Shown here: positions 91 to 23,933 of the stretch, one piece after another
How the letters are laid out: each line of letters opens with the position of its first letter
How positions within the stretch are numbered: the first letter of the stretch is position 1
DNA from: a virus
Direction: 5' to 3' (one strand)
DNA length: 27,533 nt
IMG/VR virus record: IMGVR_UViG_3300025769_015018
Span: 1-27,533 of that record
Made by a program: the position numbers and the translations under genes
The notes under the pieces: model-generated
The model's input: only the letters and a program-made list of their open reading frames with translations
The model's database searches: none
Told to the model about the DNA's origin: nothing

Positions 91-1839
91 CTAAACCTCG
101 CCAGAGCCAAAGCACCCCATGACAATGGCCGCAGCCACCTGCATACATTCGCAATCAAGAGCGTGATTTTCGCGAAACTTTTTCCACATCAAGACGGTGT
201 TTCCGTGTCGATCAATCGATTCTGTCTTCCGCTCTCCGTTGACTTGCTTCTGATAGGCTTCCGTCTGTTCGCCGACATCACAAGCAAGCCACTCAGCGCC
301 CTTGCCCTCTTTCAGGGTTGCCAGAATGTCTTTAACCGTGGGGTTCGACCACCGAAAGAGTAGAACAATCGGAGAGTTGCGAGAGATCGAAACCTTGACC
401 TTGTTTGATACTGGCCGACGCCTCTTGAGCTTCCGCTTGCCTTTGGTCTCACTGATTAGATAGTCTGAGGTGTCCTCCCCTTGCATCATCGTCCAGCCAT
501 ACTTGGAGCAAGCCGCCGCTACTTCGTCTGGCTTGTACATGCGATCCACAAACACTAATCCGCTTTTAACTCCGCTCTGCTCACGTATCTCTTCGACCTC
601 TTCGAAGCTTTTCGGCCTCTCGTATCGAACCAACCTAGACCTGCCGTCTCTGGACCATTGGCGAACGCAAACCCAAAAGTCAGCCAAGTATTGCTGACAA
701 TCTACAGTTATAAAGGTGAACGCTTGGTCATCCCACTCGACGCTTGGATCGTAATCATCAAGAGCCAAATCCTTGATTTTAACATAGCGCTCCTCAACCC
801 AAGGTTGACCAAGCTGAAGGTTAACGAACTCTTGCAATGGTGTAGTATAGCCTGTCTTTGCCTGCTGGCTGGCTCGAATGAACTCCTCAACCAAGTCTTC
901 CCAAGAGCAAACCGAAGGCGGAAGGCAGAGAGCCGTAAAACGAAAAGACCGGTTCCTCTCGTTGGCTCCTGGATTCTTTGCGACGTACCGCCCCCCGTTG
1001 TTCATTCGCCTCGACGTGCCAGCAGTGTGCTTGTGAGCATGACCGCATTCAGGACATTCTAGTCTGACAGTCTTCCGAACCTCCTTGAAGTTCCATTTTC
1101 CGTCTGGCCTAGTGGTCTCGTTTTCGTCCCATTTGATAATCTCCGAGAAATCAGGCTCGATCATTCCTCCACACCCCAAGCATTCAAAGTTCCACTCCTC
1201 TTGGCTCCCTTGCTCCCACTCCGCGCAAAAGTCATCGCCAGCAAGCTTTGGCGTTGACTCATAGACCCTCTTCCGATCTGACCAACGAGTTGTTCTCTTC
1301 TTGGATCTTTGGACATTGCCAGGACTCCAGGCCGAAACCTCAGTGCCAAAGATATAGCGGATCGAGTGAGACCGCAGGAACGAATCGTTGGCTGGACCCA
1401 TCATCACAGTTGCTTGCGGGAATTTGATCTTCAGCTTTTTCTTGCCGTTTCGATTGTCCGGCATCACTCGAGCCAATGCGGGGCACGACTCAAGAACGGG
1501 GTTGATTTTGTTCTCTGCCAAGTTCTCGAGCGAGTCGCCAGCGTCAGAAATCACCATCGTTGGCCCTGGATCTTCCGCTAATGCCCAAGCAACCCCGCCC
1601 TGAATCACGGTAGTCTTGCCCAACTGAGCGCCAGACATAATCGTTAACTGCATGATTGCCGGATCCGTAATGCAACTCAAAGGCTCCCGAAGCCAAGGAG
1701 TCTCAGAGATCACGAACTTGCCGCCATAGGGTGAATCCTTCAGCGTGATATTGTCGTGCATCCAATCCCACAATGGAGCCTCATCAGGCAAGCGGAAGCG
1801 GCTTGCAACTTCCTTCTCGAACAGCTCAACAGCTTTCAT
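91..1839 (-). CDS. terL: Terminase large subunit, lambda gpA family
   Basis: The DNA-packaging motor: an N-terminal ATPase drives DNA into the procapsid and a C-terminal RNase H-like nuclease cuts concatemers. Of 582 residues, a Walker A motif SGAQLGKTT lies at 69-77, and the Walker B position reads YIFGTEVSAW (162-171) with E167 but Thr where Asp is usual. YESTP (193-197) fits motif C. Two CxxC pairs (C220/C223 and C262/C265) form a zinc knuckle seen in gpA-type terminases. Candidate nuclease acids are D380 (FITVDCQ), D432 (VFVDRMY) and D562 (NHALDCE). The start ATG overlaps the terS stop as ATGA, so the two are translationally coupled. The length is close to lambda gpA (641). Very confident in the family. 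Confidence 0.95.
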   Translation of the reverse strand: MKAVELFEKEVASRFRLPDEAPLWDWMHDNITLKDSPYGGKFVISETPWLREPLSCITDPAIMQLTIMSGAQLGKTTVIQGGVAWALAEDPGPTMVISDAGDSLENLAENKINPVLESCPALARVMPDNRNGKKKLKIKFPQATVMMGPANDSFLRSHSIRYIFGTEVSAWSPGNVQRSKKRTTRWSDRKRVYESTPKLAGDDFCAEWEQGSQEEWNFECLGCGGMIEPDFSEIIKWDENETTRPDGKWNFKEVRKTVRLECPECGHAHKHTAGTSRRMNNGGRYVAKNPGANERNRSFRFTALCLPPSVCSWEDLVEEFIRASQQAKTGYTTPLQEFVNLQLGQPWVEERYVKIKDLALDDYDPSVEWDDQAFTFITVDCQQYLADFWVCVRQWSRDGRSRLVRYERPKSFEEVEEIREQSGVKSGLVFVDRMYKPDEVAAACSKYGWTMMQGEDTSDYLISETKGKRKLKRRRPVSNKVKVSISRNSPIVLLFRWSNPTVKDILATLKEGKGAEWLACDVGEQTEAYQKQVNGERKTESIDRHGNTVLMWKKFRENHALDCECMQVAAAIVMGCFGSGEV

Positions 1840-2309
1840 TCAAACTTAGTTTCCTGCAATCCGTTCAGGCACAAGTAAACCTGCTCCTTAAGTATCCTCT
1901 GAATCTCATGCGGTGGTTGACCTTCTAGCAATGGAGCCATCTTCTTAGGCATTGCCAGCAAGTGAGACCTAACAGATTCAGCCAGCGTCGCCATGCACTT
2001 CAACACGTCGCTAACTGGAAGTAGGTTTCGCACCTGGATATCAGTCTCGTTCTTGAGCTTGAGGATTTGCAATTCAAGTTTCTGCTCTTCAAGCTCCTGC
2101 TGCCTGGTCGTCCTGCCCACCCTTGCAATCTTTAAGTCCGAGACCTTCTTGACCTCATCTCGATCAAACAGATTAGCGTTGCCGATCTTGCCAACTGGCT
2201 CAAGTTGAGAGCACCAACCGCGCATTGATTGGATAGGCTTCCCGAACTCCTTCGCCAGCTCTGAAACTGTCTTGCCTGGTGGCTTCTTAGTTGCTTTCTT
2301 CTTTTTCAT
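1836..2309 (-). CDS. terS: Terminase small subunit, Nu1-like
   Basis: The probable DNA-recognition subunit of the terminase, which binds the packaging site and hands DNA to TerL. A Lys-rich N-terminus is followed by a winged-helix/MerR-like segment at about residues 12-60 (VSELAKEFGKPIQSMRGWC, then GNANLFDRDEV). A charged helical coiled coil follows at about 65-95 (QQELEEQKLELQILKLKNE), then a helical C-terminus for oligomerisation or TerL contact. The length of 157 residues is near lambda Nu1 (181). ATG at 2309 was chosen because GGAG sits 10 bases upstream; a TTG at 2315 is possible. It ends in an ATGA overlap with terL. The identification rests on the domain pattern and on adjacency. Confidence 0.85.
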   Translation of the reverse strand: MKKKKATKKPPGKTVSELAKEFGKPIQSMRGWCSQLEPVGKIGNANLFDRDEVKKVSDLKIARVGRTTRQQELEEQKLELQILKLKNETDIQVRNLLPVSDVLKCMATLAESVRSHLLAMPKKMAPLLEGQPPHEIQRILKEQVYLCLNGLQETKFE

Positions 2310-2325
2310 TTCCAATTATCTCCAT

Positions 2326-5158: not shown

Positions 5159-5662
5159 TTAAAGTTTCGTGAATCCTGTTTTATAACCAACGTACAAAGG
5201 GTGGTAAAACTCCCCTGTTTTGGTTGCTTTGAGATAGTAGGTTTTGTCACGCATGTTCCTGGTGAGCAGCTTGACGATTTCGCTTCGATTTTTAAACTTC
5301 CCATGGTTCCCCCAGGCGTAAACGACCTTTCCCGCCCTCAATGCGTTTGCGTATATAATCCGGTCGTTCCAGCGCCCCACGGGGTCTGCCTGTTTTTTCA
5401 TATCCCTTGGGTCAGTTGCTCTGAAGGCAAAGATGTTGAGCATTGTAAAAGATGACGCGCCTATGCTGTTGCAGCGATTAATGCACCGAGTGACCGTCGG
5501 GTCTGGCTTGTCGTGGTCGGCCGTCGATGGATTTAAGCAGATAAAAACAACGTCTAGCCCCTCCCCCTCAAGATCAACCCGTAAGGCATACCGGTATTTC
5601 ATGCAACCCGAATAAATAGCCTCAGCAAAGTCTCCCTTTTTTTGCACAAGATCAAGGCTCAC
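5159..5662 (-). CDS. DUF1643 domain protein
   Basis: 167 residues matching DUF1643 over nearly the whole length: the N-terminal YRYALR and VVFICLNPSTAD, then DPTVTRC, SSFTMLNIFAFRATDP and VYAWGNHGKF, followed by a C-terminal GEFYHPLYV segment. The family is common in phages and bacterial accessory regions and its biochemical role is not established; the conserved N-P-S-T-A and W-G motifs suggest a binding or catalytic pocket. The ATG overlaps the HNH stop as ATGA. Confidence 0.85.
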   Translation of the reverse strand: MSLDLVQKKGDFAEAIYSGCMKYRYALRVDLEGEGLDVVFICLNPSTADHDKPDPTVTRCINRCNSIGASSFTMLNIFAFRATDPRDMKKQADPVGRWNDRIIYANALRAGKVVYAWGNHGKFKNRSEIVKLLTRNMRDKTYYLKATKTGEFYHPLYVGYKTGFTKL

Positions 5663-6006
5663 TTTCTTGCCTCCCTTGTTTCAACTTGCAATTGACGTCG
5701 GCATTTTTCTGAGCATGTCAACCTGCCCGCCCTTGAGTATTCAAAGAGCATAGAGCAGACCTCGCAATGCTTGATTTTTTTATGCTCTCGCCACCTGTAG
5801 TTGGCGTCCTTCCTCCCGTGGCAAGCACGGCAAAGGATTTGAATGTTAGACGGGTCGTTGTTGTCTGGATTGTGGTCCTTATGGTCCCTTGTCAGGTCGT
5901 TTTTTTCTCCGCACTCTGAACACTTCCTCCCGGCCACCGAATACCGCTTGCGGCACTTCCTGTGTCCTGGGGTCTGCGCGTTTCCTTTTGCCCTGTCTCT
6001 TTTCAT
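5659..6006 (-). CDS. HNH endonuclease-type protein
   Basis: 115 residues from ATG 6006 (MKRDRAKGNAQ). An HNH metal-finger nuclease core runs from about 30 to 70: CSECG, then TRDHKDHNPDNNDPSNIQILC and RACHGRKDANYR, giving paired Cys knuckles, DH and N-x-x-x-L-C-x-x-C-H. A second pair of Cys pairs follows (CEVC and CSEKC), so two zinc sites are likely. HNH proteins near phage terminases can assist packaging or act as homing or nicking nucleases; which applies here is not known. The start was chosen by ATGA overlap; the open frame reaches 6123. Confidence 0.8.
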   Translation of the reverse strand: MKRDRAKGNAQTPGHRKCRKRYSVAGRKCSECGEKNDLTRDHKDHNPDNNDPSNIQILCRACHGRKDANYRWREHKKIKHCEVCSMLFEYSRAGRLTCSEKCRRQLQVETREARK

Positions 6007-6341
6007 TCCTCGACATCCTCCATTAAGTGCATAGGCATCATTATTCCGGCTACATAACAAAGCTTTGTAACCGCCTTTCCCTCGGTTGCTCCGTAGGCCA
6101 TGAATCCGTTCTCTATTAGCCATTCCCCCTTTGTGGCTATCACGTCATAGGGAGCCCTGTTTTCATGGCCTGGTGGGCTCCTGTAAGCTATCCATGGCTG
6201 CTTAATGTAGGCCGATTTCCAATAGGTGATCCCGGATTCCAGCGCGAACCTTTCCCTTGTCATTTCGCCCAAAGTGAATCGCTTTAAAGTAGGTCTTGGC
6301 GCAGGGGTTACCCCCCCAAATAAGTCAGCCTGCTCACTCAT
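6003..6341 (-). CDS. Hypothetical protein with N-terminal clamp-binding-like motif
   Basis: 112 residues of unknown family. The first nine residues, MSEQADLFG, contain QADLF, which fits the beta-sliding-clamp binding pentapeptide (QL[SD]LF type) used by polymerases, repair proteins and some phage factors. The rest is aromatic-rich (ITYWKSAYIKQPWIAYRSPP, about 38-57) with no known domain. It overlaps both neighbours by ATGA. The clamp role is a hypothesis from five residues. Confidence 0.6.
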   Translation of the reverse strand: MSEQADLFGGVTPAPRPTLKRFTLGEMTRERFALESGITYWKSAYIKQPWIAYRSPPGHENRAPYDVIATKGEWLIENGFMAYGATEGKAVTKLCYVAGIMMPMHLMEDVEE

Positions 6342-6901
6342 TGCTTATTTCTCCCTAATGCATCGCACATCGAATTCCAGGCCACAGAGGACTGGCGTGA
6401 GTCTTGATATGATGGACCAGACGCCCCGCACTCGGGACAGAGGGCCCTGTGCATCACTGGGGATTCCGCGCATGCTACTTTCATTTCGCATTCCATTTTC
6501 GCAAGGTTGTAGCAATGCGGGCACGGCTTAAGCTTGATTGATTTCCCGTTGTCGCTGGCTATTCCGTTTTCTAGGAAGAGAGATTCCAGTTGAACGACAC
6601 GCCTTTCGAGCTCTCCTATTAATACTGAGTCCCTGTCTTTGTTTATCTGTGCCAGGTTCCCTTTGTTGTAGATGTCGTTTATTCTTAAATACGCCCCATC
6701 TGCCTTGTCCATGGCTTCCCTGGCCTGGCTGCTGATGTGGTTCACGACCTTGACCATCTCTACGACCGCATGACCAAGACAATCTACGGCTGCCTCTGTG
6801 GATAGCTTTTCATCCAAGGGAGATAAGGCTAGCTGTGGGACTTTTTCACTCTCCCCTACGTCTCTTGTTACCAGCGTGACTGATTCGCTATTTTTCATCA
6901 T
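6338..6901 (-). CDS. Coiled-coil protein with C-terminal Lar-like zinc ribbon
   Basis: 187 residues from ATG 6901 (alternative ATG 6898). The N-terminal two thirds are helical with a coiled coil (LIGELERRVVQLESLFLEN, about 93-111). The C-terminal 65 residues match the Lar layout: KLKPCPHC, CPECGASGPSYQ and a closing VAWNSM. Restriction alleviation is known for the Rac Lar protein only, so this is a structural rather than functional match. It overlaps the previous gene by 14 bases. Confidence 0.7.
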   Translation of the reverse strand: MMKNSESVTLVTRDVGESEKVPQLALSPLDEKLSTEAAVDCLGHAVVEMVKVVNHISSQAREAMDKADGAYLRINDIYNKGNLAQINKDRDSVLIGELERRVVQLESLFLENGIASDNGKSIKLKPCPHCYNLAKMECEMKVACAESPVMHRALCPECGASGPSYQDSRQSSVAWNSMCDALGRNKQ

Positions 6902-7199
6902 CCACCCAGATAATAGTTTGACCGTTAGCGTTAACCCTGGGGACTGCATGCCCTTGAGGGGTTACTAAGTATTGAACCCCTGTTCCGTAGTCGGTCCAGA
7001 CTTTGAACCCGCTCCTCTGAAACCTGTTCTTGTCCGAGTTGTCAAGGTCTACTCCGACGAATGCACTCGCTGCTCCGAGTAAGCATAAAACAACAAGAAT
7101 CCCAATGACGGCCACGGCTATGAAGCTTAGCGCCCCTTCAGTTATGCACCTCCCATACTCCTTCAGCTCACCTCTTTGCTCTTTTGAATATCTTTGCAT
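6888..7199 (-). CDS. Single-pass membrane protein
   Basis: 103 residues. One strong membrane segment at about 24-47 (ALSFIAVAVIGILVVLCLLG), preceded by a charged cytoplasmic-type head and followed by a soluble tail of about 55 residues. The tail reads WTDYGTGVQYLVTP, which recalls the T-G-V-x-Y-L pattern of DUF6440; this is a weak match. AAAGG lies upstream of ATG 7199. The role is unknown; small early phage membrane proteins often act in host takeover or superinfection exclusion. Confidence 0.65.
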   Translation of the reverse strand: MQRYSKEQRGELKEYGRCITEGALSFIAVAVIGILVVLCLLGAASAFVGVDLDNSDKNRFQRSGFKVWTDYGTGVQYLVTPQGHAVPRVNANGQTIIWVDDEK

Positions 7200-7203
7200 G
7201 GTC

Positions 7204-8073
7204 TTACCTTTCAGTGATTCGAACCGCGTTTTGGTAAGGGGCTGAAACGTCTCTCACGCTTGCTTGGCTGATTATGATCTTAGCAACCCCACACTCGTCA
7301 ACGGGAACCTCCATATAAACCGAATGTTCGTGATCAATCACGTCTAACATGATAGTGCCGTCCCCATACTTGCAAGCGTAGTCTGCTGCCCTTCGTAGCT
7401 GCTCAGCGTTTAACACCACCCTCGTCCCTTGGATTCCCTCCCGCGATCTAATAACGCCAGAAATATTGGGTGCTGCTTTCACGTTCCCTGGTATCATCAT
7501 GACCTTTTTTGTTGTGTCACTATCCCTTATCAGTGTACGCCTGGTCACTGTCGCTGCTTCCCAGTCCTGAGATAGGTCGATTTCAACCTCCTCGTCCTTG
7601 GCTGGTTTCTTCATAGCCTCTTTTGCCTGGGTTAGATCGACCGAAACCACGCCCTCCTTTGTCCATTCTCTAACGTCTCCCCTTACGATCGGAACCTGAA
7701 TTGCCGCCATCCCGTTTGTCGCTGTGACTGTCGATTTAATGCAGTCGACCTGACTGAATTGGATAGGGTTACTTGTGTCCCCTGGCTTGATCGGTGCCTG
7801 CTGAAAATCCCCTGTGTAGTGACCAGGCTGAAGGGAGACTTCAGCTCTGACCGCCCCTTCATTTTCCATCGTTTTCTTAAACGACTTAACAGTCTTCGCC
7901 ATGTCGTCCTGCTTTAGCTTTTTTGCGGCCTCTTTGACCGTTTTGTGTTTGCCTGGAGTTTTACCACCCATCGAGACCTCGACGGCTACCCCGTCGTTTT
8001 CGTCGACAGGGCTGGTTTGAATTTCAGGGGCAGGAATCGCTCCGCTATATTTTTCTGTCTGTTTATCACTCAT
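7204..8073 (-). CDS. Hypothetical early protein (289 aa)
   Basis: 289 residues starting MSDKQTEKYSG. The first 90 residues are polar and basic, probably partly disordered (KTVKEAAKKLKQDDMAK), followed by beta-rich segments; the last 90 residues (GTRVVLNAEQLRRAADYAC, then DGTIMLDVIDHEHSVYMEV) look like a compact alpha/beta domain. No family recognised. ATG 8073 was chosen over GTG 8100 because AAGG precedes it and because a putative promoter -10 lies at 8092-8097, so the mRNA would start after the GTG. First gene of the early operon. Confidence 0.65.
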   Translation of the reverse strand: MSDKQTEKYSGAIPAPEIQTSPVDENDGVAVEVSMGGKTPGKHKTVKEAAKKLKQDDMAKTVKSFKKTMENEGAVRAEVSLQPGHYTGDFQQAPIKPGDTSNPIQFSQVDCIKSTVTATNGMAAIQVPIVRGDVREWTKEGVVSVDLTQAKEAMKKPAKDEEVEIDLSQDWEAATVTRRTLIRDSDTTKKVMMIPGNVKAAPNISGVIRSREGIQGTRVVLNAEQLRRAADYACKYGDGTIMLDVIDHEHSVYMEVPVDECGVAKIIISQASVRDVSAPYQNAVRITER

Positions 8074-8091
8074 GTTTAGCCTTGAGCAATC

Positions 8092-8135
8092 AATATGCAC
8101 TAAACCCGCTTATGGGTCAAGCGGCAATGTGGTAT
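8092..8135 (-). promoter_or_regulatory. Putative promoter with upstream TACCACAT box
   Basis: Reading on the minus strand: ATACCACAT at 8135-8127, TTGACC (-35) at 8120-8115, 17 bases, then CATATT (-10) at 8097-8092. It would drive the early gene array from 8073. The TACCACAT box is shared with two other promoters in the window. Confidence 0.5.
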
Positions 8136-8151
8136 TGTGCGGAGTGGTAAT

Positions 8152-8185
8152 AAGAAAGCTCCCCCTAGCCAAAGCCAGGAGGAGC
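8152..8185 (-). terminator. Rho-independent terminator after the tRNA
   Basis: On the minus strand GCTCC-T-CCTGGC, loop TTTG, GCTAGG-G-GGAGC (8185-8158) forms an 11-pair stem with one mismatch, followed by TTTCTTATT. It lies 41 bases past the tRNA 3' end and before the next promoter. Confidence 0.65.
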
Positions 8186-8226
8186 CATCCGTTACTTTAG
8201 GGCAGATGCGTATTTTTCTGCCTAAA

Positions 8227-8304
8227 TGGTGTCCCCGCCGGGAGTCGAACCCGGTCTGCCGACGTGAAAAGCCGGTTTGCTATCCGCAGTTACAACACAG
8301 GGAC
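8227..8304 (-). tRNA. tRNA-Glu (anticodon UUC)
   Basis: Manual folding gives a complete cloverleaf. The acceptor GTCCCTG pairs with CGGGGAC (one G-U); the D stem is TTGT/GCAA with an 11-base loop containing GG; the anticodon stem is CCGGC/GTCGG with loop TTTTCAC, so the anticodon is UUC. The variable loop is CAGA. The T stem CCGGG/CCCGG encloses TTCGACT. The discriminator A and CCA are encoded at the 3' end (8229-8227). Total length is 78 bases. The GTCCC opening is typical of bacterial tRNA-Glu. Phage tRNAs usually support late translation where host supply is poor. Confidence 0.93.
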
Positions 8305-8566
8305 AAAGTAAGGAGGGTTTCTCGCACTCTCCGGGCCATTCAAAAGCTTCCCCTGTTATAAAGGCCGGGGCAGCCATGCGTCTCTTTCCTGGGCCTGGAC
8401 CGAGGAGCTGGCGGACCGCTCGCCAAATTCTAAGTGAGCTCAAGCATCTTGCTGAAGCGGGACTCGGGTTGTCCCATGATGACTCCCTAACGGAAGAGGT
8501 CTTCGATCCTTGTTTTTTTAATCCCCGTGCTCACTTAGAATAGTTTTACCGCAAAGCCGCACCTTG
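8305..8566 (-). other. 262-base gene-free region upstream of the tRNA
   Basis: No convincing coding frame on either strand. The stretch holds the putative promoter at 8543-8570, a 13-base inverted repeat enclosing hairpins at 8427-8541, and two further GC-rich hairpins closer to the tRNA: GGCG/CGCC around 8410-8424 and GCTGCCCC/GGGGAAGC around 8347-8376 (one mismatch). Most of it is therefore predicted to be structured RNA that would be co-transcribed with the tRNA. Confidence 0.6.
8427..8541 (-). ncRNA. Candidate structured RNA closed by a 13-bp perfect inverted repeat
   Basis: ATTCTAAGTGAGC (minus strand 8541-8529) is perfectly complementary to GCTCACTTAGAAT (8439-8427), closing a domain with an 89-base interior. 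Inside lie a hairpin GGGAC/GTCCC (8475-8459) and a 9-position hairpin with one mismatch and an AGA loop (8458-8438, sharing two bases with the closing stem). A putative -10 at 8548-8543 would start transcription near 8536, within the left arm. It matches no RNA family I recognise. Seen: the pairing. Inferred: that it is a functional RNA. Confidence 0.45.
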
Positions 8567-8570
8567 TCAA
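8543..8570 (-). promoter_or_regulatory. Putative promoter of the RNA/tRNA island
   Basis: On the minus strand, a perfect TTGACA (8570-8565) contains the stop codon of the beta-helix gene, followed by 16 bases and TAAAAC (8548-8543, 4 of 6). It would start RNA at about 8536, giving the structured region and the tRNA their own transcript ending at the terminator at 8152-8185. Confidence 0.5.
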
Positions 8571-9706
8571 GTCCCTGCTACAGGATCACCAGGCTTCCAA
8601 ATACCCAGAGGTTCCTCGAACGCTGTCCCAACCGCTACACGTTGAGCCCTTTCTGCCTTGCCACAAACATCGAACTTCAAGTCCAGCCGCTCGTCCCTGT
8701 CGTCTCGGGATTGTGCCTTGTAAGCGTAGCCCACGTTGACGTTTTCAAACACGTGCAGCTTTACCGAAAGCGCCTTATTATAGTAACCTCCAAGGTCGCA
8801 GTTTGTCGCGAAATTTTCAGACGTTACACCGTGACAAGACGTGAAGATTTCGCCGACTTTGCTGTGGTAGTAACGGCATCCCCTAACATGGCCAAATTTC
8901 ACTGACGACAACCAAAGTCCTGCCTCTGGTTTTTCAATCTGTAGATTGTCCACAACGAGGTCATTGACGTGGCTTGTGTGGGTTCTGCCTCCGTGAACTT
9001 TCACGTCCCGATAAATCCCGTCTAGCGACTCGGGCGTCCAGTCACCCTGGACTGCTACGGACCCCAACCCGACCGTGGCCCTACCTTTCCCGTGTTGCAT
9101 GATATTGCAATCCCTGACCTGCTGATTCATCAAGTGGCCCGCAAGAATAATTCCCGAATTGTCGCGTCCTCCATAACCTGGAATAAACCGAATGTCCCTG
9201 ATGCCTGCGTTCACTCCTAATAATTTCGTTCCCATGATCGAGCAAGTGCCAAGAACCAGGAATGACGGGTCTCCGTAAGAACTCAAATGCCAAGGCGGCA
9301 ATTGTTCAGGTCTCTTTTGGTTGATCTGGTTTCCAGAGTAAATGAAAACCGTGTTAAGATATCCGTCTCCGTAAATTCCAGTCCTTGGCCAAAGCTGAGG
9401 AACACCATCCCACAAGTAATTACCTGCCGGGAAATAAATCATGACTCCCGTGGCCCCGGCAGTTCTTGCCCAAAACTCGCTAGGCGGATTGTCTGGCATC
9501 TTCACATCGCGGTAGGATGGCAAAACAATCTCCTCGTAAACGGACCGTTGTAGCTTGTGGTAAGCCAAGTCTACAGCCTCCCTTCCTGTGATTGCTTTCT
9601 CTGGGCTTTCAACAAAATCAAGGATATTAAAAGTAGTCTCTGCTTGAGTCCCAATTCTTGCTGTGCCTAATGCGTTTAGTGTTAGCTCTATTTTTCGTTT
9701 TCTCAT
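8567..9706 (-). CDS. Pectate-lyase-like right-handed beta-helix protein, possible tail spike
   Basis: 379 residues. The region at about 85-125 (TGVMIYFPAGNYLWDGVPQL, then GIYGDGYLNTVF) is the typical start of a Pectate_lyase_3-type beta-helix, and the following 200 residues show short repeating strands (GIRDIRF, NSGIILAG, QVRDCNI, NDLVVDNLQIE, FGHVRGCRYY, GVTSENFATN). Such folds form phage tail spikes that bind or cleave surface polysaccharide, or host-derived lyases; no catalytic residues can be named here. It overlaps the head-morphogenesis-like gene by ATGA. Odd: it lies between replication genes and the early array, far from the tail module. Confidence 0.75.
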   Translation of the reverse strand: MRKRKIELTLNALGTARIGTQAETTFNILDFVESPEKAITGREAVDLAYHKLQRSVYEEIVLPSYRDVKMPDNPPSEFWARTAGATGVMIYFPAGNYLWDGVPQLWPRTGIYGDGYLNTVFIYSGNQINQKRPEQLPPWHLSSYGDPSFLVLGTCSIMGTKLLGVNAGIRDIRFIPGYGGRDNSGIILAGHLMNQQVRDCNIMQHGKGRATVGLGSVAVQGDWTPESLDGIYRDVKVHGGRTHTSHVNDLVVDNLQIEKPEAGLWLSSVKFGHVRGCRYYHSKVGEIFTSCHGVTSENFATNCDLGGYYNKALSVKLHVFENVNVGYAYKAQSRDDRDERLDLKFDVCGKAERAQRVAVGTAFEEPLGIWKPGDPVAGT

Positions 9707-10554
9707 TTATGTTTCACCCTTATTTCACCGTCAACAATCTCCACCTTGTCTCCTAGTGCTTTTTTAAGTTTTCCAAGAATCTCTGGCTCCATGTTTTTAA
9801 TGGAGGCCCTAGTGGATTCGTTAAACCTTGGCCCCTTTACTGACACCTTGTCTCCTGCTTTAATAAGCCCCAGCTTGACAGCCTCAGACCTGGGGACTTC
9901 CTCAACGTCCATCTGAGAATTGAAGCCCCACGGACCGTATGGCACACCGAACCCTCCAAACTTTGGATTGTTTCTGGCCACCCAGAACTTTCGATCGCTT
10001 TTTAGTCTCACGGCTCCTTCATGCTTTTTGTGATCTGGCCTAGGCTCAGACACCGCCCCACCGCGAACGAATCGCCAAGCCGGATAAGCATCGATGAGCC
10101 TTGGATCTGTTGCTAGCTGCATCGACCCATAGCCCCAGGCCTTTCTTTGCTGAGTTTCGAATATCAGCCCCAGGCGTCGCTCGCTACCGAGGTCTTGGTT
10201 TTCTTTTATCACCCCTCGCCCGCCTCGAGGCATCCCTTTTGGGAGGGCGTCAGCCAGCCCGTTTTTTATCATCCATGGTTGCATTTTATCAACAAAGGCC
10301 TGCTTACTCCCGACAGTTAAAGCCTTCCCTCTTGGGGTTGCTTCGGTTGACTTTCTCAACGACGCCTTGAGTAGCCCTTGCAACTTCGACAGCACGTCAG
10401 CAGATTCAACGTGCGCTGTAAAAAATGCTGATTCTCTAATCTCTTCAGCGGTGTTCGCCCACTGCTCAGACGACAAGGCTATCGCTAGCGGTTTAAGTCC
10501 TGAGATTCGCTTGACCGCCTCTGTGAATTTTGCGGGCTTTGTTAAAACGCTCAT
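9703..10554 (-). CDS. Head-morphogenesis-like protein (Mu gpF/SPP1 gp7-related), tentative
   Basis: 283 residues. The N-terminal half is helical (SAFFTAHVESADVLSKLQGLL, about 42-62). The centre and C-terminal part read RRLGLIFETQQRKAWGYGS, AYPAWRFVRGG, EPRPDHKKHEGAV, FWVARNNPKFGGFGVPYGPW, GFNSQMDVEEV. That series (helix ending in a Tyr/Gly turn, W-R, R-P-x-H, F-W, P-P/F-N-S) follows the layout of Mu F-like minor head proteins and of prophage proteins I associate with Verrucomicrobia, but it lacks the NCRC motif of classic members. It could be a capsid or connector protein or an injected protein. Its placement in the replication region is unusual. Confidence 0.5.
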   Translation of the reverse strand: MSVLTKPAKFTEAVKRISGLKPLAIALSSEQWANTAEEIRESAFFTAHVESADVLSKLQGLLKASLRKSTEATPRGKALTVGSKQAFVDKMQPWMIKNGLADALPKGMPRGGRGVIKENQDLGSERRLGLIFETQQRKAWGYGSMQLATDPRLIDAYPAWRFVRGGAVSEPRPDHKKHEGAVRLKSDRKFWVARNNPKFGGFGVPYGPWGFNSQMDVEEVPRSEAVKLGLIKAGDKVSVKGPRFNESTRASIKNMEPEILGKLKKALGDKVEIVDGEIRVKHK

Positions 10555-10606: not shown

Positions 10607-11665
10607 TCACTCTGGCACCTCTAGGCTTGCGAGCCTCCTGTTAATGTCGGTCACAGTGGCCTTTAGTTCTTTTATGTGCTTTCCGTATTCGGCTCGCTTC
10701 GCTCGGTCTCCATTGCTTGCAAGCGGTCCAGTAACAAGGCGCTCTCGCTTTCCTGTGACATCCTGTATCTCAGCTTTGACCCCTTCGAGTTTTTGTTTAA
10801 GAGAAAACGCGATAGATGCAGCCCCACGGCCTGAGCCTCCTGCTTTGGCTTTCCCCTTGTCGCCCATTCCCGAATTTGATCCTCTCTCATGGTTTCTATT
10901 CTGCCTAGCTGCCCATATTCCTGTAAAATACGATTTCCAATTCATAACTCTCCGGCCCTTCCAGTCGACCCACCCGACACTGCATGCCTCATGATAGGCC
11001 GACACGATCCATTCAGCGTCAGCGTGAAGGTTGTTAGCGTTCCACGCCTTCACCTCAGTCAAAGAGGGCTCCTCGGCAAAGCTAGCCCTGTTTCCGTCGA
11101 CCAAGGCCCTCGCCTCTCCTAGCGGTTTAAAGGGCTGGATAATGTTAGGATCACCCTCCCCGCGTGGGGGGGGTGTATTCTTATAGTCTGTTCTGTTCTG
11201 TTCTGATGTGTTACTTTTCGTGACATCCGTGACAGTCACGTTACATCCGTTACTTTCCGTGACATTCGATGTCGGTTTTTCTTCAAGCCCCAGCTCTAGG
11301 TTTTTTATCCTTTCCCTGCGCTTTCGCTGTCTAAGCCTGTTCTGCTCTCGGACGTCGAGTCGTGTCTTCATGTCTCGATATTCCCCTCCCTTAACAACAA
11401 GCCATCCACCTGAAACCCGCTCTAGTCGCGCCCCTGAGCCCTCTTCGTCCTCCGAGTCGGGGTCTGGTCCTTCTAGGTATTTGAGAGCAGACCTCGCCGA
11501 CATTTCGGTAACATTGGCACGCCTCGCCAGTGCTGCCGGTGAGCCCATTCTGACAAAACCGTCCTCGTCCATCATTAGGAGGAGGGTCAACCAAACTACT
11601 CGAGTGTCAGTGCTTTCTTGCCACACCGACGAGTCGAGTAAGCATTCGTAAACCTTCGTGTACAT
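10607..11665 (-). CDS. Phage replication initiator / replisome organiser with winged helix
   Basis: 352 residues. The first 85 (MYTKVYECLLDSSVWQEST, then VWLTLLLMMDEDGFVRMGS, AALARRANVTEMSARSALKYL and LERVSGGWLVVKGGEYRDM) match the N-terminal winged-helix domain of phage replisome organisers, which bind the origin and load the host helicase. A basic stretch (RLRQRKRRERIKNL, about 111-124) follows, then a low-complexity linker rich in N-V-T/S (about 133-162) encoded by repeated DNA that resembles origin iterons. The C-terminal half has an HADAEWIVSAYHEA segment and a terminal coiled coil. This is the layout of lambda O-type proteins, whose gene also contains the origin. Confidence 0.75.
   Translation of the reverse strand: MYTKVYECLLDSSVWQESTDTRVVWLTLLLMMDEDGFVRMGSPAALARRANVTEMSARSALKYLEGPDPDSEDEEGSGARLERVSGGWLVVKGGEYRDMKTRLDVREQNRLRQRKRRERIKNLELGLEEKPTSNVTESNGCNVTVTDVTKSNTSEQNRTDYKNTPPPRGEGDPNIIQPFKPLGEARALVDGNRASFAEEPSLTEVKAWNANNLHADAEWIVSAYHEACSVGWVDWKGRRVMNWKSYFTGIWAARQNRNHERGSNSGMGDKGKAKAGGSGRGAASIAFSLKQKLEGVKAEIQDVTGKRERLVTGPLASNGDRAKRAEYGKHIKELKATVTDINRRLASLEVPE
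11152..11265. other. Putative replication origin inside the initiator gene
   Basis: Bases 11208-11265 hold six close copies of a GTnAC(G) element, in order GTTAC, CGTGACA, the 13-base palindrome CGTGACAGTCACG (11228-11240), GTTAC, CGTTAC and CGTGACA. Next come about four TTCTG repeats (11187-11205), an AT-rich patch (11174-11190) and a GC-rich inverted repeat with a 10-pair stem (11152-11175). Iterons, AT-rich spacer and inverted repeat inside an initiator gene mirror the lambda origin. Inferred from arrangement only. Confidence 0.5.
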
Positions 11666-11682: not shown

Positions 11683-11740
11683 GTTACACTCATGACATTA
11701 GTGACATGCGTGACAGTCACGTTACAATGTGACAGTCACG
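11683..11740. promoter_or_regulatory. Second cluster of GTGACAGTCAC repeats upstream of the initiator gene
   Basis: Between the ribbon-helix-helix gene and the initiator start lie GTTACA (11683), ATGACA (11692), GTGACA (11701), the palindrome CGTGACAGTCACG (11709-11721), GTTACA and a second palindrome GTGACAGTCAC (11729-11739). Bases 11701-11726 match 11220-11245 with one mismatch. The likely roles are operator for autoregulation or additional iterons. I see no clear sigma-70 promoter in it. Confidence 0.6.
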
Positions 11741-11970: not shown

Positions 11971-12447
11971 TTAAGGTTTTTCAAAAGGTCCATCAGTCCA
12001 AAGCCTGATGGTTACCCCTTCCAGTTCTGGGTCTTGAGTCCAGTAGGATTTTCTGCGGAAGTCCCACACCTGAATATCGTTCACGTAAACCCCTTTGGCT
12101 TGCAGCGCGTCCAGCACTGCCTTCTCGAGGTTGTCTCCGTCCCCGCATGCCTGAGCACCAGTCTGACCGAGTGAAACCCTGGCGTCCTTGAACTTATCGC
12201 GCAGGCACCCATCCGGCCCATAGTGTGACTTTGGACGAATAAACCTGAAGGTAGCGTCGACCGTGACCGGGCCCTCCTCGGCTCGCGGCATCATTCCCGC
12301 AGCGCATTTCAATGAAATTAAAGTCTTCCACGCATTGACTCTTTTAGAGTTGAAAACATGCCTTTGCTTGCCTGTTTTTTCGTTTTTAAAAGTATCATGT
12401 CGAGGCTGAGGCACTGGTCGACCTTGAACAACTATCGTATAGAGCAT
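11971..12447 (-). CDS. rusA: RusA-family Holliday junction resolvase
   Basis: 158 residues from ATG 12447. RusA dimers cut four-way junctions formed during phage recombination and replication. The signature segment runs from about 102 to 133: GDGDNLEKAVLDAL, then GVYVNDIQVWDFRRK, with the acidic residues D103, D105 and D124, the helix NLEKAVLDAL and basic R131/R132/K133. The usual DD pair reads ND here (N123-D124). The N-terminal VVQGRPVPQPR is also typical. ATG 12447 was chosen because the longer frame to 12540 would overlap the nuclease gene. The start sits directly after a terminator-like hairpin, suggesting regulated expression. Confidence 0.88.
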   Translation of the reverse strand: MLYTIVVQGRPVPQPRHDTFKNEKTGKQRHVFNSKRVNAWKTLISLKCAAGMMPRAEEGPVTVDATFRFIRPKSHYGPDGCLRDKFKDARVSLGQTGAQACGDGDNLEKAVLDALQAKGVYVNDIQVWDFRRKSYWTQDPELEGVTIRLWTDGPFEKP

Positions 12448-12479
12448 AAAAAAATCCCCACAAGGAAGGCCTTGCAGGG
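12447..12479 (-). terminator. Terminator or RBS-hiding hairpin immediately before rusA
   Basis: On the minus strand, CCCTGCAAGG, loop CCTT, CCTTGTGGGG (12479-12456) pairs at all ten positions with two G-U, followed at once by ATTTTTTT and the rusA ATG. This is a textbook intrinsic terminator shape, but the T-run touches the start codon and the right arm holds the only G-rich ribosome binding sequence. Confidence 0.7.
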
Positions 12480-12494
12480 TTGTTTGGTTTAGGT

Positions 12495-13553
12495 TTATTC
12501 CTTGACTAACCTCTCGGATGGCGCTCCTTCCTCTGAGCATCCGTCAAGAAGTCTTTCCATCTCTGCGTTTAACGCCTTTCCAGCGAGTCCCGTCTTTGTC
12601 TTGACGACCTGGCCTAGCCCTTTCTTTGTCACGGTTACCATTGTGCCAAGCATTTTCATTCCGTACCCGCTCTCGTGCATTCTATCGATTAATGGCTCAG
12701 CTTTAATTTTTTGACGGCCTTTAGTTTTTTGAACCTTCCACCCTGGAATATCCAATCCCTCCTCGACTATCAACTTTTTAGCAATTTCCCGGTGCTCCTT
12801 GTGCGCCGAAACTGCAAGGTCGCCAACGTCTAAGAGCCTAGAAAGATCTTGGGGGCTAGTTACTGCTGACGGTGAAGCCCATTCAACCTCTCCGATTAGC
12901 TCGTTTCTTTCGCTGCAAGATGCTCTTGCGGGGCAGTATCGGCAATGGTCCCCTGCATTGGCAGGGGCGTAAGGGTCGTGCGCTTTTTCAGCAATGGAAT
13001 CTATCGCAGTAGCAATCATGTCTAACCCCTGCCACCCGTACGAAGCTACCGTGTACTGTGGGGATTTCATCGGGGTTGCTAGTGCTACGTAAATCTTCCA
13101 CCCTTCCCCTAGGTTAAACTTCTGACTTACCAGCAATGCTTGCGTAGCCAGTTGGTAATTAACCTCAGCATCTTCCCCTCCCCTTGGGCCAGACTTGTAA
13201 TCGACCACAAGCGCAACTTTTGATTCTTTCCAAAGGCTGACATAGTCCCACTTTCCAGAGTATTTATAACTCGAAGCAAAAGACTGAACGCGCTCCTCTC
13301 TTGAAACTACACCTTCGTCATTCTTCAGTAATGACGGGGTGATTACTGCTTCTATTATTTCCAAAACTATGTCGTTGCACCGCTCGGCAACTGCTCCGTC
13401 CGAAGCATCCAGGGCCTCAAAGTTTTGATGCTCTAGCGCGTCGTGGATTTCGTTTCCTCTTTGAGCTGATGCCGATGTCGTGTCCGGCATCCACCGCCCC
13501 CTTAAAAAGGAGGCAGGGCACTTATAGTAACGCCCCATTGATGATGCGCTCAT
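12495..13553 (-). CDS. RecB/Cas4-like PD-(D/E)XK nuclease with probable iron-sulfur cluster
   Basis: Likely the exonuclease partner of RecT, making single-stranded ends for annealing. Numbering from MSASSMGRYYKC: an N-terminal Cys (C12) in KCPAS, H37 in NEIHDAL, D103 in GKWDYV, the core ALVVDYKSG with D118 and K120, and Q134 in YQLATQALL. A C-terminal HCRYCPARASC supplies three further Cys (204, 207, 213). Four Cys placed one plus three is the [4Fe-4S] pattern of Cas4/AddB nucleases. It also resembles DUF2800. The last 110 residues are an extension of unknown role. ATG 13553 has GAGGA upstream; ATG 13577 would lie at the predicted transcription start. Confidence 0.82.
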   Translation of the reverse strand: MSASSMGRYYKCPASFLRGRWMPDTTSASAQRGNEIHDALEHQNFEALDASDGAVAERCNDIVLEIIEAVITPSLLKNDEGVVSREERVQSFASSYKYSGKWDYVSLWKESKVALVVDYKSGPRGGEDAEVNYQLATQALLVSQKFNLGEGWKIYVALATPMKSPQYTVASYGWQGLDMIATAIDSIAEKAHDPYAPANAGDHCRYCPARASCSERNELIGEVEWASPSAVTSPQDLSRLLDVGDLAVSAHKEHREIAKKLIVEEGLDIPGWKVQKTKGRQKIKAEPLIDRMHESGYGMKMLGTMVTVTKKGLGQVVKTKTGLAGKALNAEMERLLDGCSEEGAPSERLVKE

Positions 13554-13583
13554 GTTCTGTCCTCGTTCGTTTTTCATTTTCAC

Positions 13584-13633: not shown

Positions 13634-14794
13634 TTATTGTCCAGACCGCAGCGTTTCAAGCTCCGCTAATAACGGGGCCGGGTTCTTGAGAATCGCCCGC
13701 GCAAACTGGTTAGGGAATCCATTTTTGGCTACATCGTAGTCTTGTTGGATATTCATAAAATAGTTAAAGTCGCTCATAGCAAAACCATTGTCGGTTAATA
13801 CTTTTTCCAACTGCTCCTGTTCGGTGGTAACACTCTGAGCGGTTGGAAGCACCTCGACATTTTCGGGCTCGTTCCCTGACTCCGTTTCTGGCGCTGCGGG
13901 CTGCTCTGGCGCTGCGGGCTGCTCTGGCTGCTCCGCCAGGCGTGCCTGCTCCATTTCTGCCTTGGTTCGCCGTTTCCTCTTCGGCTTTTGTGCCTCGCCC
14001 TCAAAGCCCGCGGCAGGCTGTTCTTCTGCGCTTCCCCCTTCTTTATCTTCTCCTATTTTCCCCATGGGGATTTCGTCGACCGTTACGTTGTCATCAAATC
14101 GAGGAGTCGAATCAATGCTGTCTTGAGTGCTCATGTCCCTTGAGACCGCTGTTTCAATATCAATAGACATAGGCCCCCAGTGTGTTAGCAGGGACTTGAG
14201 GACCGTCTTTTTGGCCATTGAATCAAAATCCGTCAGCCAGGGTGAATCTTTCTTTTTGGCTCGGTAAGCTTGAGAGAATCGCTCAGCGTGATCGATGATT
14301 TCTGATGTCTTCCAGTAAACCGTATGCTGGTAACCGTTTACTGTCTCGAGGAATGCTCCGTAACCGATCGGGTCTCCTGAGTCTTCGACGTCGTCATTAA
14401 ATTCGACCTGGCCTGTCTTCTTGCTCGTCTTAATTATTTGTCCTTCATATACCGCAAAAGTATTAAGGTGCTTGTACTGCCCGGACCTGATCGCCAACTG
14501 AACCAGACCTTTGTAACCGATCTGAAACTGTGCCTTTCCAGCGTAGGGAACAATGTAGGCTAACCCCAAAGTCTGATTGACTGGCAGATTGAGCGTTGCG
14601 GCAACCATCGCAGACGCCAGAACTGAATTAGGATCGCAATTCGCCAGGTGACGTTGCTGGCTGATAGCAATGATGGATGAGCAAAATTGTGGGGCTCTGT
14701 GTCCCAACACCTCAGTAAATCTTGATTTGACCGAATCCTTTTTAACTAGGGTTGATACGGTTTCTCTCTGTCGTTGTTGCAACTGATTATTCAT
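13634..14794 (-). CDS. recT: RecT single-strand annealing protein with long C-terminal extension
   Basis: 386 residues from ATG 14794. RecT coats single-stranded DNA and anneals it for phage recombination. The RecT core spans about residues 10-225: RHLANCDPNSVLASAMVAAT, LGLAYIVPY, FQIGYKGLVQLAIRSGQY, DPIGYGAFLETVNGYQHTVYW, and MAKKTVLKSLLTHWGPMS. E. coli RecT has 269 residues; the extra 120 comprise an acidic linker, a basic KPKRKRRTKAEM patch (270-281), a Pro/Gln/Ala repeat (289-303) and a final helical segment of about 60. The start lacks a Shine-Dalgarno and has an A-rich leader. It forms a recombination set with the nuclease and RusA downstream. Confidence 0.93.
   Translation of the reverse strand: MNNQLQQRQRETVSTLVKKDSVKSRFTEVLGHRAPQFCSSIIAISQQRHLANCDPNSVLASAMVAATLNLPVNQTLGLAYIVPYAGKAQFQIGYKGLVQLAIRSGQYKHLNTFAVYEGQIIKTSKKTGQVEFNDDVEDSGDPIGYGAFLETVNGYQHTVYWKTSEIIDHAERFSQAYRAKKKDSPWLTDFDSMAKKTVLKSLLTHWGPMSIDIETAVSRDMSTQDSIDSTPRFDDNVTVDEIPMGKIGEDKEGGSAEEQPAAGFEGEAQKPKRKRRTKAEMEQARLAEQPEQPAAPEQPAAPETESGNEPENVEVLPTAQSVTTEQEQLEKVLTDNGFAMSDFNYFMNIQQDYDVAKNGFPNQFARAILKNPAPLLAELETLRSGQ
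13888..13927 (-). repeat. 18-base tandem repeat inside recT
   Basis: An 18-base unit, CTGGCGCTGCGGGCTGCT on the plus strand, occurs 2.2 times and encodes EQPAAP repeats in the linker of the RecT extension. Copy number may vary between relatives. Confidence 0.85.
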
Positions 14795-14948
14795 TTTTTT
14801 ATTAGTTTGAGGTTGCCATCTTGGCAACGGGTTAGATCTTACCAACTAAGAAACGGGAGTCAATACCGCATGTGGTAACATATTAAGTGTTGACTGACTC
14901 TGGAATTTAAATAGGTTTGGAGTTTCTCAGAGTGTTTCGCTCTGCCTT
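14795..14948 (-). promoter_or_regulatory. Promoter region and 5' leader of recT
   Basis: On the minus strand: TTACCACAT box at 14878-14870, TTGACT (-35) at 14863-14858, 16 bases, TAAGAT (-10) at 14841-14836. The transcript would start near 14829 and open at once with a hairpin GTTGCC-AAGAT-GGCAAC (14828-14812), followed by AACCT and an A-rich stretch before the ATG at 14794. The remaining bases up to 14948 hold nothing else I can identify. This is the main promoter of the recombination and replication module. Confidence 0.55.
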
Positions 14949-21522: not shown

Positions 21523-21918
21523 TTAGCCTTTAAAGGACGGGTTGATCGGTTTGGAACAGTGAATAGACAGGCCTGTCGCGCTCGCGTCAAAGACTATTTT
21601 TTGATCGTTCCCTGAGTCCTTGTAAGCGCCCATGTTGGCAAACTCATATTGCTTGTTAGCGGGAATGACGTAATCTTTGGTTGTAACAGACTTTCCGATT
21701 GCGCCCAAGCCTGAGTCAGTTGGGGTGGGAACAGTGATTTTGAGGGTCAGGTCTCCCCCAGTTGTATTCTTGACCTTGATAGCTCCTACGTCAGCGTGAG
21801 CCGCTTCGATTCCCGTCCCTGCCGTGATATCCTGGTAAGTCAAGTCAGCGAGCGTGATATTTAAACCTGCATAGCTGCTCGCGGTTGGGTCGTGTAGTGC
21901 TGTTAGTGTATCTGCCAT
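21523..21918 (-). CDS. Beta-sandwich virion protein
   Basis: 131 residues with low complexity of charge and high Thr/Gly/Ala. The strands VGAIKVKNTTGGDLTLKI, TTKDYVIPANKQYEF and NDQKIVFDASATGLSI give an all-beta fold with the N-T-T-G-G-D-L-T-L and V-I-P-A-N patterns common in small phage decoration or tail proteins. Likely a minor structural protein; capsid decoration cannot be separated from tail function on sequence alone. Confidence 0.5.
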   Translation of the reverse strand: MADTLTALHDPTASSYAGLNITLADLTYQDITAGTGIEAAHADVGAIKVKNTTGGDLTLKITVPTPTDSGLGAIGKSVTTKDYVIPANKQYEFANMGAYKDSGNDQKIVFDASATGLSIHCSKPINPSFKG

Positions 21919-21919
21919 T

Positions 21920-22756
21920 TTAGGTAACTTTCTCGTAAAGGTTCTGGTCGAAGTAGTCTATCCCCCACCACTCGCGGGTAACAATAAAAGTGTTGTCGGC
22001 TGTTTGCTGCTTTTGGTATGGCTGCTTGTGCCACCAATTCACCGTGGCCGGAATAATACCAGCCGGTATTACTTCCCCCGCCTGTATTGCCTCACCTGCC
22101 ATCCTGAAGGGTGAAAGCATCCTATTGACATTTGTATCAAGAACAGGGTAGTGCGAGTCATTGAAATCCGCAGACACGGTAATCGTGTTAGTGATTACAA
22201 ATCGAGGCTCGAAAAACACCTCGACCCCCCGAATGTAGGTTATGGCGTATTTAATCGCAAGGTTGTCTAACTCGGCTGCGCTATGTTCCGAAGTGTTCAG
22301 GACAGCCGCAGTGCTCCCGTCTATTTCAAACAGATTTGATGCCTTAACAGTGTCCGTGTCAAACCGGCTAGAAGAAAGCTGCGCTGTGTAGTGCTTGTCG
22401 ATTTCAATCTCGATAAATCTTGCCCACCCAGGAAATGCGAAATCCAAAGCTTGCCCCATCAATGACGCGACAAGGGGGACTTCGTGCTGTGACCCAAGCC
22501 TCCCCCAGATCGAAAAAAGGTCGATCCCATACTCTACAACGAGCCGATGGTAAGGCCCTGGGACCTTTTGGTGAACGACGTTGATATGCTTTGGAAAAGA
22601 GGTATCCCTTGCATTGTAATGATCCAGGGTGTCTCCCGGTGTGCCCTCGTAGACTACATGCCTCCTGGTGCCACGGTGGATATTAAAGTTGACCGTTTCC
22701 TCGACGAAAACAAGATTGCCAACTTGATATTGAGGCCTTGATACATAGCTGCCCAT
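21920..22756 (-). CDS. Tail-region virion protein, unassigned
   Basis: 278 residues with an all-beta look and high aromatic content, no signal or membrane segments. It follows the tape measure directly, the usual place of distal tail or tail-tip proteins. Distinct stretches include NLVFVEETVNFNIHRGTRRH (13-32) and a C-terminal NWWHKQPYQKQQTADNTF with a WWGIDYFDQNLY end. AGGAA lies 8 bases upstream of ATG 22756. Family not recognised. Confidence 0.55.
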   Translation of the reverse strand: MGSYVSRPQYQVGNLVFVEETVNFNIHRGTRRHVVYEGTPGDTLDHYNARDTSFPKHINVVHQKVPGPYHRLVVEYGIDLFSIWGRLGSQHEVPLVASLMGQALDFAFPGWARFIEIEIDKHYTAQLSSSRFDTDTVKASNLFEIDGSTAAVLNTSEHSAAELDNLAIKYAITYIRGVEVFFEPRFVITNTITVSADFNDSHYPVLDTNVNRMLSPFRMAGEAIQAGEVIPAGIIPATVNWWHKQPYQKQQTADNTFIVTREWWGIDYFDQNLYEKVT

Positions 22757-22760
22757 AACG

Positions 22761-23933
22761 TTAATTCCTGTTGACAGCTTCGGTTGTCTCTCTGGTGTTC
22801 TCGGCTATCCGTCGAAGCAAATGGACTTGCTTCTGCTGGGAAGTTTGGGCTATCGAAGCCCCTGGGGTCACACCGAGTCCTGCCCGAGCGAACCCGTCTA
22901 CCGCTTTCCTGTTCCCTCCTAGCTTGTCGGATAAATCATCAAACCGTTGAGCCTGTGCTAGTCTTTTTGCCAGATCGAGAGAAGACGTAGCCCCTTTGTC
23001 TGTGCGCGTCTTGTTTGAGACGTCCTGCTGCTCTATTAGGTCAGCGATCGCATTTGCTCCCAAGTTATCGACCGACCTGACTAATCCTCTGGCTAGCTTC
23101 CCGGTGTCTACACTCCCGCCTGGAAGCGTAAGGCCTAGACCTAGTTTTCCTGCCTCAAGTCCGACCCTCAGCGCACCCTTGGCTCCCACCGCCGCAAGAC
23201 TTGCCCCTTCGATTATCGGCGTCAGCATCTTGGCTGCCACCTCGAGGGCTGGTGTGAATGATCCTTTTATGGTGCCAACCAATCGGTCAAAAGACTGATC
23301 AAGCTTGGACAAGGACTCGTTCATGGGATCAAGAGCGCCTTCAGAGATCACCCGTCCGTCTTGTTTTGCCTGCTCCGCGAACAGCGAAAACCCGTTTGAC
23401 AGGGCTAAGAACACTTCCTCCCCTTTCGAGCCCATGGCCTGCACAGCGGCCCCTGTCTCGATCGCTGTCATCCCTCCCTCTTCAATCTTTTTGCGAACCA
23501 TCTCGAAGAGCTCCTCGGGCTGGGCTCTTCTCACCTCTTGCAGGTCTAGCCCCATCTTTCGAAAAACAGACGAGTCGGCCCCTTGCTCTCTGGCCAGGCT
23601 TAGTATTGCCTCGTTAATAGAGTCGATCGAAGTCTTCGATTGCTCGGCAGCAATCGCCCAGGCTTGGACCTTTTCAGAGGACACCTCGAATGCCTGCGAT
23701 ACCGTGTCAATAGCCTTGGCCTCGCTCAACAGCTTCTTTCCTAGTCCCACTGCCGCAATGGCTGTAGACACAGCAAGAAGCCTTCTACGCGCAAACACGA
23801 GAAGATTTGTGACCCCTACGGATTTATCGGAGGCCTTGTTGGTTTTGTCGAGCTCATCAGAAAGGGCTTTAGCGTCTCTGATAGCGTCGTCTCCCTCGCT
23901 CTGAAATTCGATCGTTACTGGAACGTCAGCCAC
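22761..23933 (-). CDS. Tail tape measure protein (short)
   Basis: Sets tail length and is ejected with the DNA. 390 residues with the familiar layout: a short beta head (PVTIEFQSEGDDA), a coiled coil (IRDAKALSDELDKTNKASDKS), a hydrophobic segment (LLAVSTAIAAVGLGKKLL, about 52-69), and the conserved FEVSSEKVQAWAIAAEQSKTSIDSI, then AVQAMGSKGEEVFLALSNG. A second hydrophobic stretch lies at about 235-255. Ala/Gly-rich throughout. Most siphovirus tape measures have 600-1500 residues, so the tail should be short, near 58 nm. It overlaps the preceding gene by 8 bases. Confidence 0.85.
   Translation of the reverse strand: MADVPVTIEFQSEGDDAIRDAKALSDELDKTNKASDKSVGVTNLLVFARRRLLAVSTAIAAVGLGKKLLSEAKAIDTVSQAFEVSSEKVQAWAIAAEQSKTSIDSINEAILSLAREQGADSSVFRKMGLDLQEVRRAQPEELFEMVRKKIEEGGMTAIETGAAVQAMGSKGEEVFLALSNGFSLFAEQAKQDGRVISEGALDPMNESLSKLDQSFDRLVGTIKGSFTPALEVAAKMLTPIIEGASLAAVGAKGALRVGLEAGKLGLGLTLPGGSVDTGKLARGLVRSVDNLGANAIADLIEQQDVSNKTRTDKGATSSLDLAKRLAQAQRFDDLSDKLGGNRKAVDGFARAGLGVTPGASIAQTSQQKQVHLLRRIAENTRETTEAVNRN

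Follow-up and report, generated by a model that had tools for sequence, protein, structure and literature searches.

A putative structured RNA with an exchangeable tRNA in two related phages

The locus and its gene neighborhood

The window analyzed here is a virus record of 27,533 bases, in which nearly all long open reading frames (ORFs) lie on the minus strand, and the element described below is likewise read on the minus strand. The presence of a non-coding stretch on this strand, from 8152 to 8541, was confirmed between a gene that probably encodes a tail-spike, judging from its weak family resemblance, and the gene of a protein to which no family could be assigned (Table 1). The recombination and replication genes lie on one side of the element, and a block ending in the terminase genes lies on the other.

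Several further features of the window are recorded here as separate observations. Downstream of the non-coding stretch, a weak match to a Lar-like restriction-alleviation domain, below the cut-off, was found at 6338-6949, together with a DUF1643 protein at 5159-5662. A 26-nt repeat is present in 2 identical copies (2651-2676 and 2916-2941) at the starts of the adjacent small ORFs 2326-2676 and 2678-2941, as a duplicated leader or N-terminus of the two. Furthermore, the palindrome CGTGACNGTCACG occurs at 3 sites (11228-11240, 11709-11721, and 11728-11740), compared to 0.3 expected matches; one copy lies within ORF 10607-11665 in an iteron-like run and two lie just upstream of this ORF. In a relative (L007), the palindrome is found at the start of and inside the orthologous gene (9902-9914 and 10347-10359). 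These sites resemble an origin of the lambda-O type, located within an initiator gene, combined with an autoregulatory operator.

Table 1. Features of the window and of the element between genes 8567-9706 and 7204-8100.
Feature	Position	Strand	Remark
Tail length tape measure	22761-23933		Family search
RecT	13634-14845		Family search
Exonuclease	12495-13583		Family search
RusA	11971-12540		Family search
SPP1-gp7-like minor head protein	9703-10554		Family search
Upstream neighbor gene	8567-9706		Weakly pectate-lyase-like
TTGACA hexamer, possible -35	8565-8570	-	Kept in L002, partly forced by coding
P1, 5' arm ATTCTAAGTGAGC	8529-8541	-	Inverted repeat
A-rich one-sided bulge ACGGGGATTAAAAAAA	8513-8528	-	Kept in L002 as ACGGGrAU-nAAAAAAA
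P2 (8512-8501 with 8457-8441) around hairpins P3 (8496-8483) and P4 (8475-8459)	8441-8512	-	
P1, 3' arm GCTCACTTAGAAT	8427-8439	-	Inverted repeat
P5 hairpin UGGCG-AGCGGUC-CGCCA, loop CGGUC conserved	8409-8425	-	C-G to U-A double change
P6 hairpin CCU..AGG, then conserved AAGAGACG	8388-8405	-	Consensus fold
P7 GGC/GCC (L002: GCC/GGC), then conserved UUUAUArCAG (8362-8353)	8363-8375	-	Consensus fold
30-nt block GGAAGCTTTTGAATGGCCCGGAGAGTGCGA	8322-8351	-	Identical in both phages, unrelated sequence thereafter
tRNA-Glu (UUC), CCA encoded	8227-8304	-	ARAGORN; Rfam tRNA
Intrinsic terminator (13-bp stem, T-rich tail)	8157-8186	-	
Conserved AATACCACATTrCCGCTTGACCCAyAAGC, 3' of terminator	8108-8136	-	Kept in L002; single copy in window
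Downstream neighbor gene, 298 aa, no family named	7204-8100		
HNH	5659-6123		Family search
Small terminase subunit	1836-2315		Family search
Large terminase subunit	91-1839		Family search

Promoter, tRNA, and terminator

The initial annotation had described the stretch as a self-contained transcription unit with a perfect TTGACA promoter, a complete tRNA-Glu, and a terminator. The tRNA was borne out by ARAGORN (Glu, TTC) and by the Rfam tRNA covariance model (RF00005), which matches 8304-8230 with 48.1 bits against a cut-off of 29 bits, and the terminator was recovered as a 13-bp stem followed by a T-rich tail at 8186-8157. The hexamer exists as well (8570-8565), but it overlaps the upstream stop codon, its TTGA being supplied by ACT-TGA, the last codon and stop of gene 8567-9706, and a promoter scan revealed no -10 partner at normal spacing. 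Since this gene is 88% identical to its counterpart in the relative described below, the conservation of TTGACA says little. With regard to a sigma-70 unit (-35 and -10 elements 16-18 nt apart plus a terminator), the terminator is present and the -10 element was not found, and it should be noted that the host may use other promoters; given the missing -10 element, the promoter and start site are candidates only. Thus, the self-contained unit holds with respect to its terminator, which is present in both phages, but not with respect to its promoter, which comes down to a TTGACA dictated by a stop codon.

The conserved sequence past the terminator folds into a small stem-loop in the window (CCGCTT-GACCCAT-AAGCGG) and may act as promoter or operator for the genes that follow. 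Reading it as an alphaproteobacterial CTTGAC-N17-CTATAT promoter gives only a loose fit.

A relative carries the element with a different tRNA

A scan with the upstream protein led to one relative with the element, the colinear phage contig IMGVR_UViG_3300010392_000074 (37,419 b; hereafter L002), in which it is located between the same two genes as in the window. The order of parts is shared: TTGACA, TG-GGTAAA, the 5' arm of P1, ACGGGrAU with at least 7 A, P2, P3, P4, the 3' arm of P1, P5, P6, AAGAGACG, P7, UUUAUArCAG, and the 30-nt block GGAAGCUUUUGAAUGGCCCGGAGAGUGCGA. A strong intrinsic terminator with a 14-bp stem occupies the place in L002 that matches the window terminator, and in both phages it is followed by the conserved CTTGAC-containing sequence. 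The two phages are 69% identical in the 5' part of the element, compared to 57% in the gene that follows and 49% in the spacer past the 30-nt block.

The tRNAs, however, differ. In the window, UUUAUAGCAG directly adjoins the 30-nt block and tRNA-Glu comes after the block, whereas in L002 a segment of approximately 160 nt with a tRNA-Met(CAT) is located between UUUAUAGCAG and the block. That the tRNA of the relative is different in identity as well as in place argues that the RNA is not specific to tRNA-Glu.

Parts of the RNA and evidence for a conserved fold

The 13-bp inverted repeat (8427-8439/8529-8541, arms 89 nt apart) is perfect in the window and encloses two hairpins (8496-8483 and 8475-8459), just as initially annotated; inside it we found a third helix, P2 (8512-8501/8457-8441), which had been missed. 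P1 retains 11 bp in L002, with double changes in several pairs. Within the domain that it closes, P2 differs between the phages by two A-U to C-G double changes and one U-A to U-G change, P3 differs by two one-sided changes, and none of the pairs of P2 to P4 is broken in the consensus. The CGGG of the bulge may form a pseudoknot with the CCCG of a loop (8468-8465).

For the 3' half (P7 and the 30-nt block), no unique structure emerges. P7 may compete with a pairing of 8368-8363 with 8335-8329, and the 30-nt block could pair as CCGG-CC/GG-C-CCGG in the window and as CUC-GGGC/GCCC-GGAG in L002; if this pairing forms, the tRNA-Met of L002 would sit in a closed linker.

RNAalifold was applied to the two sequences, window and L002, in an alignment that keeps P1 free of internal gaps. 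Among the 44 consensus pairs, 30 are unchanged, 6 are changed on one side, 8 are changed on both sides, and none is broken. From the window to L002, the changes include CAAG/CUUG to CACG/CGUG and GAAG/CUUC to GCAG/CUGC in P2, GGCG/CGCC to GGUG/CACC in P5, as well as U-A to G-U and C-G to G-U in P1. The consensus energy (z -5.8) was not reached by any of 500 column shuffles, and in a control run of this test the RNA scored z -5.5, compared to a mean of -0.13 (SD 1.15, minimum -3.3) for 56 windows taken from ten orthologous neighboring genes of the same two phages. Sliding the partners by 1-3 columns lowered the pairing from 95% to 35-49%. The double-change count was reached by 27 of 500 column shuffles, and the observed covariation, using a hand-drawn fixed structure, by 16 of 500 shuffles of the 3' letters; as two sequences permit little variation, the covariation count represents modest support. 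Conserved or covarying structure in relatives, the absence of which would have spoken against the initial annotation by its own account, is present in L002, the sole element-bearing relative found.

When the window sequence was folded by itself, the region 8305-8541 was not better than shuffles (z -0.35), and the inverted-repeat domain alone folded better than shuffles (window z -4.0, L002 z -2.9). We therefore consider the comparison with L002, rather than single-sequence energy, to be the decisive evidence for the predicted fold. This comparison also assigns the strand: the consensus energy is -46.6 kcal/mol on the minus strand versus -27.8 kcal/mol on the plus strand, and 9 pairs that are G-U in one phage would turn into mismatches on the opposite strand. 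No codon-phase bias was detected in the substitutions between window and L002 (17/14/13), and every frame is broken by 1-nt indels and stops. Coding by the RNA region thus appears unlikely.

Searches for further family members

Searching Rfam with both phages up to E=10 returned the tRNA as the only meaningful match; neither the GOLLD and ROOL covariance models (to E=10) nor an HDV-family model matched either phage. The suggestion that this may be an undescribed phage RNA stands, the structure being conserved in L002 and Rfam being without such a family; the functions suggested along with it, a host-targeting decoy or a tRNA-processing element, found no support. Among 50,697 phage records, a blastn search with the RNA returned chance matches only (E about 10), and BLAST against 72,556 plasmid records gave no relative of the RNA. 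Scans of GTDB genomes, including one with an exact 21-nt pattern, gave no match. Scans of viral contigs with the 30-nt block and two patterns based on P1 yielded the L002 contig only, plus chance matches: one pattern match (L005) was rejected because it lies within a coding sequence, another (L014) reached 20 bits with the model and, having been preselected by pattern, was counted as a chance match, and the remaining matches were rejected as unlike the element.

Scans with the flanking proteins likewise returned L002 only. The 1154-aa protein led to three more distant contigs (48% identity), and neither RNA nor tRNA was found in the contig parts examined; in BLAST searches against phages and plasmids, neither this protein nor the tail-spike had a relative. 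The large terminase subunit of one of the three contigs is 87% identical. In IMGVR_UViG_3300005731_000032 (L021/L022/L023), with a large terminase of this identity, a 362-aa ORF (21731-22819) lies beside a sequence resembling a tRNA 3' end, which looks like an integrase with attP and suggests a temperate relative without the RNA.

Comparison with known phage RNAs

The arrangement may be likened to those of GOLLD, ROOL, and the stable RNAs of T4, a likeness that does not by itself establish membership in any of them. GOLLD is a phage and prophage RNA near tRNA islands that sometimes carries a tRNA in an RNA linker (PMC12286853). As in GOLLD, a phage-encoded structured RNA stands beside tRNAs here, and the tRNA-Met of L002 is likewise found in a linker; this is not true of the window, in which the tRNA comes after the RNA. 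GOLLD members, however, often exceed 800 nt and have a universally conserved 3' region, whereas the element described here comprises about 220 nt. ROOL is also encoded by phages and prophages, often near tRNA islands, and has no known protein partner (PMC12286853); at about 580-660 nt, with a characterized example of 659 nt forming a nanocage, it too is larger than our element of about 220 nt. Theta ribozymes, which are HDV-like, constitute a phage RNA motif adjoining tRNA (PMC10879173). They are minimal self-cleaving motifs tied to the tRNA, with a nested double pseudoknot and a catalytic C, whereas the RNA discussed here is larger, its multi-branched P1 domain lies well away from the tRNA, and no HDV-family Rfam model matched it. 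The stable RNAs of the T4 tRNA cluster (species 1/2, RNA C and D) are small, are made together with phage tRNAs, and have no known function; they would be a possible parallel.

Proposed explanation and its alternatives

We are highly confident that the two phages share a conserved structured RNA, which, given that no catalogued RNA family except tRNA matches, would be a structured phage RNA not described before, accompanied by a tRNA that can be exchanged. Beyond the structure itself, we infer its transcription, processing, stability, and action in trans as follows. From roughly 8541 to 8322 on the minus strand, the region would encode a non-coding, structured RNA about 220 nt long. This RNA would be co-transcribed with a phage tRNA, and the transcript would end at the intrinsic terminator at 8157. 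P1 would close a compact 5' domain comprising P2, P3, P4, and the conserved A-rich bulge, with P5 to P7 and the invariant 30-nt block coming next. The tRNA would be a passenger cut out by host RNase P and exonucleases, and the stable RNA left behind would act in trans, its partner belonging to the host or to the phage. Among the readings considered, this one, in which the structured RNA is stable and trans-acting and the tRNA a passenger, is the most likely, with a probability of approximately 0.5. More tentatively, the element may represent a new class of small trans-acting phage RNA, which binds, for example, the host ribosome, an RNase, or the polymerase, with an exchangeable tRNA in or beside it, and which would be a compact counterpart of GOLLD and ROOL.

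The chief rival of the trans-acting RNA is a cis-acting leader, a reading we regard as somewhat doubtful: the terminator at 8157 would stop the transcript unless an antiterminator (a Q-like protein or put-like RNA) allows read-through into the gene block that has the terminase genes at its end, an arrangement comparable to the lambda late operon. In lambda, the PR' leader ('6S') is a short terminated transcript ahead of the late gene block, and the put RNAs are structured nascent RNA. A comparable role would fit the terminator directly 3' of the element in both phages, the structure 5' of this terminator, and the location between the recombination/replication genes and the block that ends in the terminase genes. 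However, the next block has a conserved CTTGAC-containing element of its own past the terminator, head- and tail-spike-like genes are located immediately upstream, so that the element does not stand at the start of an operon, and, unlike in the lambda leader and put RNAs, a tRNA lies inside the supposed leader.

Two further readings are less likely, since the structure is kept while the tRNA changes in identity and place, and since the peptide is not conserved. The structure could serve the tRNA, either as a leader folding or protecting the precursor or as a recombination landing site for tRNA cassettes with the 30-nt block as junction. The different tRNAs in different positions around an identical 30-nt block with unrelated flanks speak for this reading. 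Against it, the covariation in P1 to P5 is found at least 80 nt from the tRNA and persists despite its changed identity and position, RNase P does not require such a leader on tRNA precursors, and compensatory changes would be needless for a DNA recombination site; this reading is considered unlikely. Even less probable is that the 30-nt block, which reads as a Shine-Dalgarno sequence followed by ATG and MARRVR, is the translation start of a short peptide (GGAAG, then ATG GCC CGG AGA GTG CGA) controlled by the upstream structure. The spacing is good, identity is 100%, and frames of 19 and 39 aa are open, but the peptides diverge completely after six residues, the window frame enters the tRNA, and no coding signal is present in the upstream RNA. 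A protein-coding gene was rejected for lack of a coding signal, and a retron-like or terminal-inverted-repeat element, in which the 13-bp repeat would serve as a1/a2 arm of an msr-msd or would delimit a small mobile element, was likewise rejected despite a perfect inverted repeat that surrounds hairpins and ends in AGC, given that no reverse transcriptase or transposase was found among the window proteins scanned with Pfam and PADLOC (part of the ORFs, including both RNA-flanking genes), that the arms covary within one orthologous position instead of moving, and that the invariant 30-nt block has no second copy.

Significance

Structured RNAs near phage tRNAs have largely unknown functions, and the best studied ones are very large. 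An RNA of 220 nt would be a tractable case, in which mutants can be designed from the proposed secondary structure and the compensatory changes, and, if the class of small trans-acting RNAs proposed here is true, its members would be small enough for study by mutation. Furthermore, that the tRNA is swapped in identity and position while the RNA stays as it is bears on the question of why such RNAs accompany phage tRNAs.
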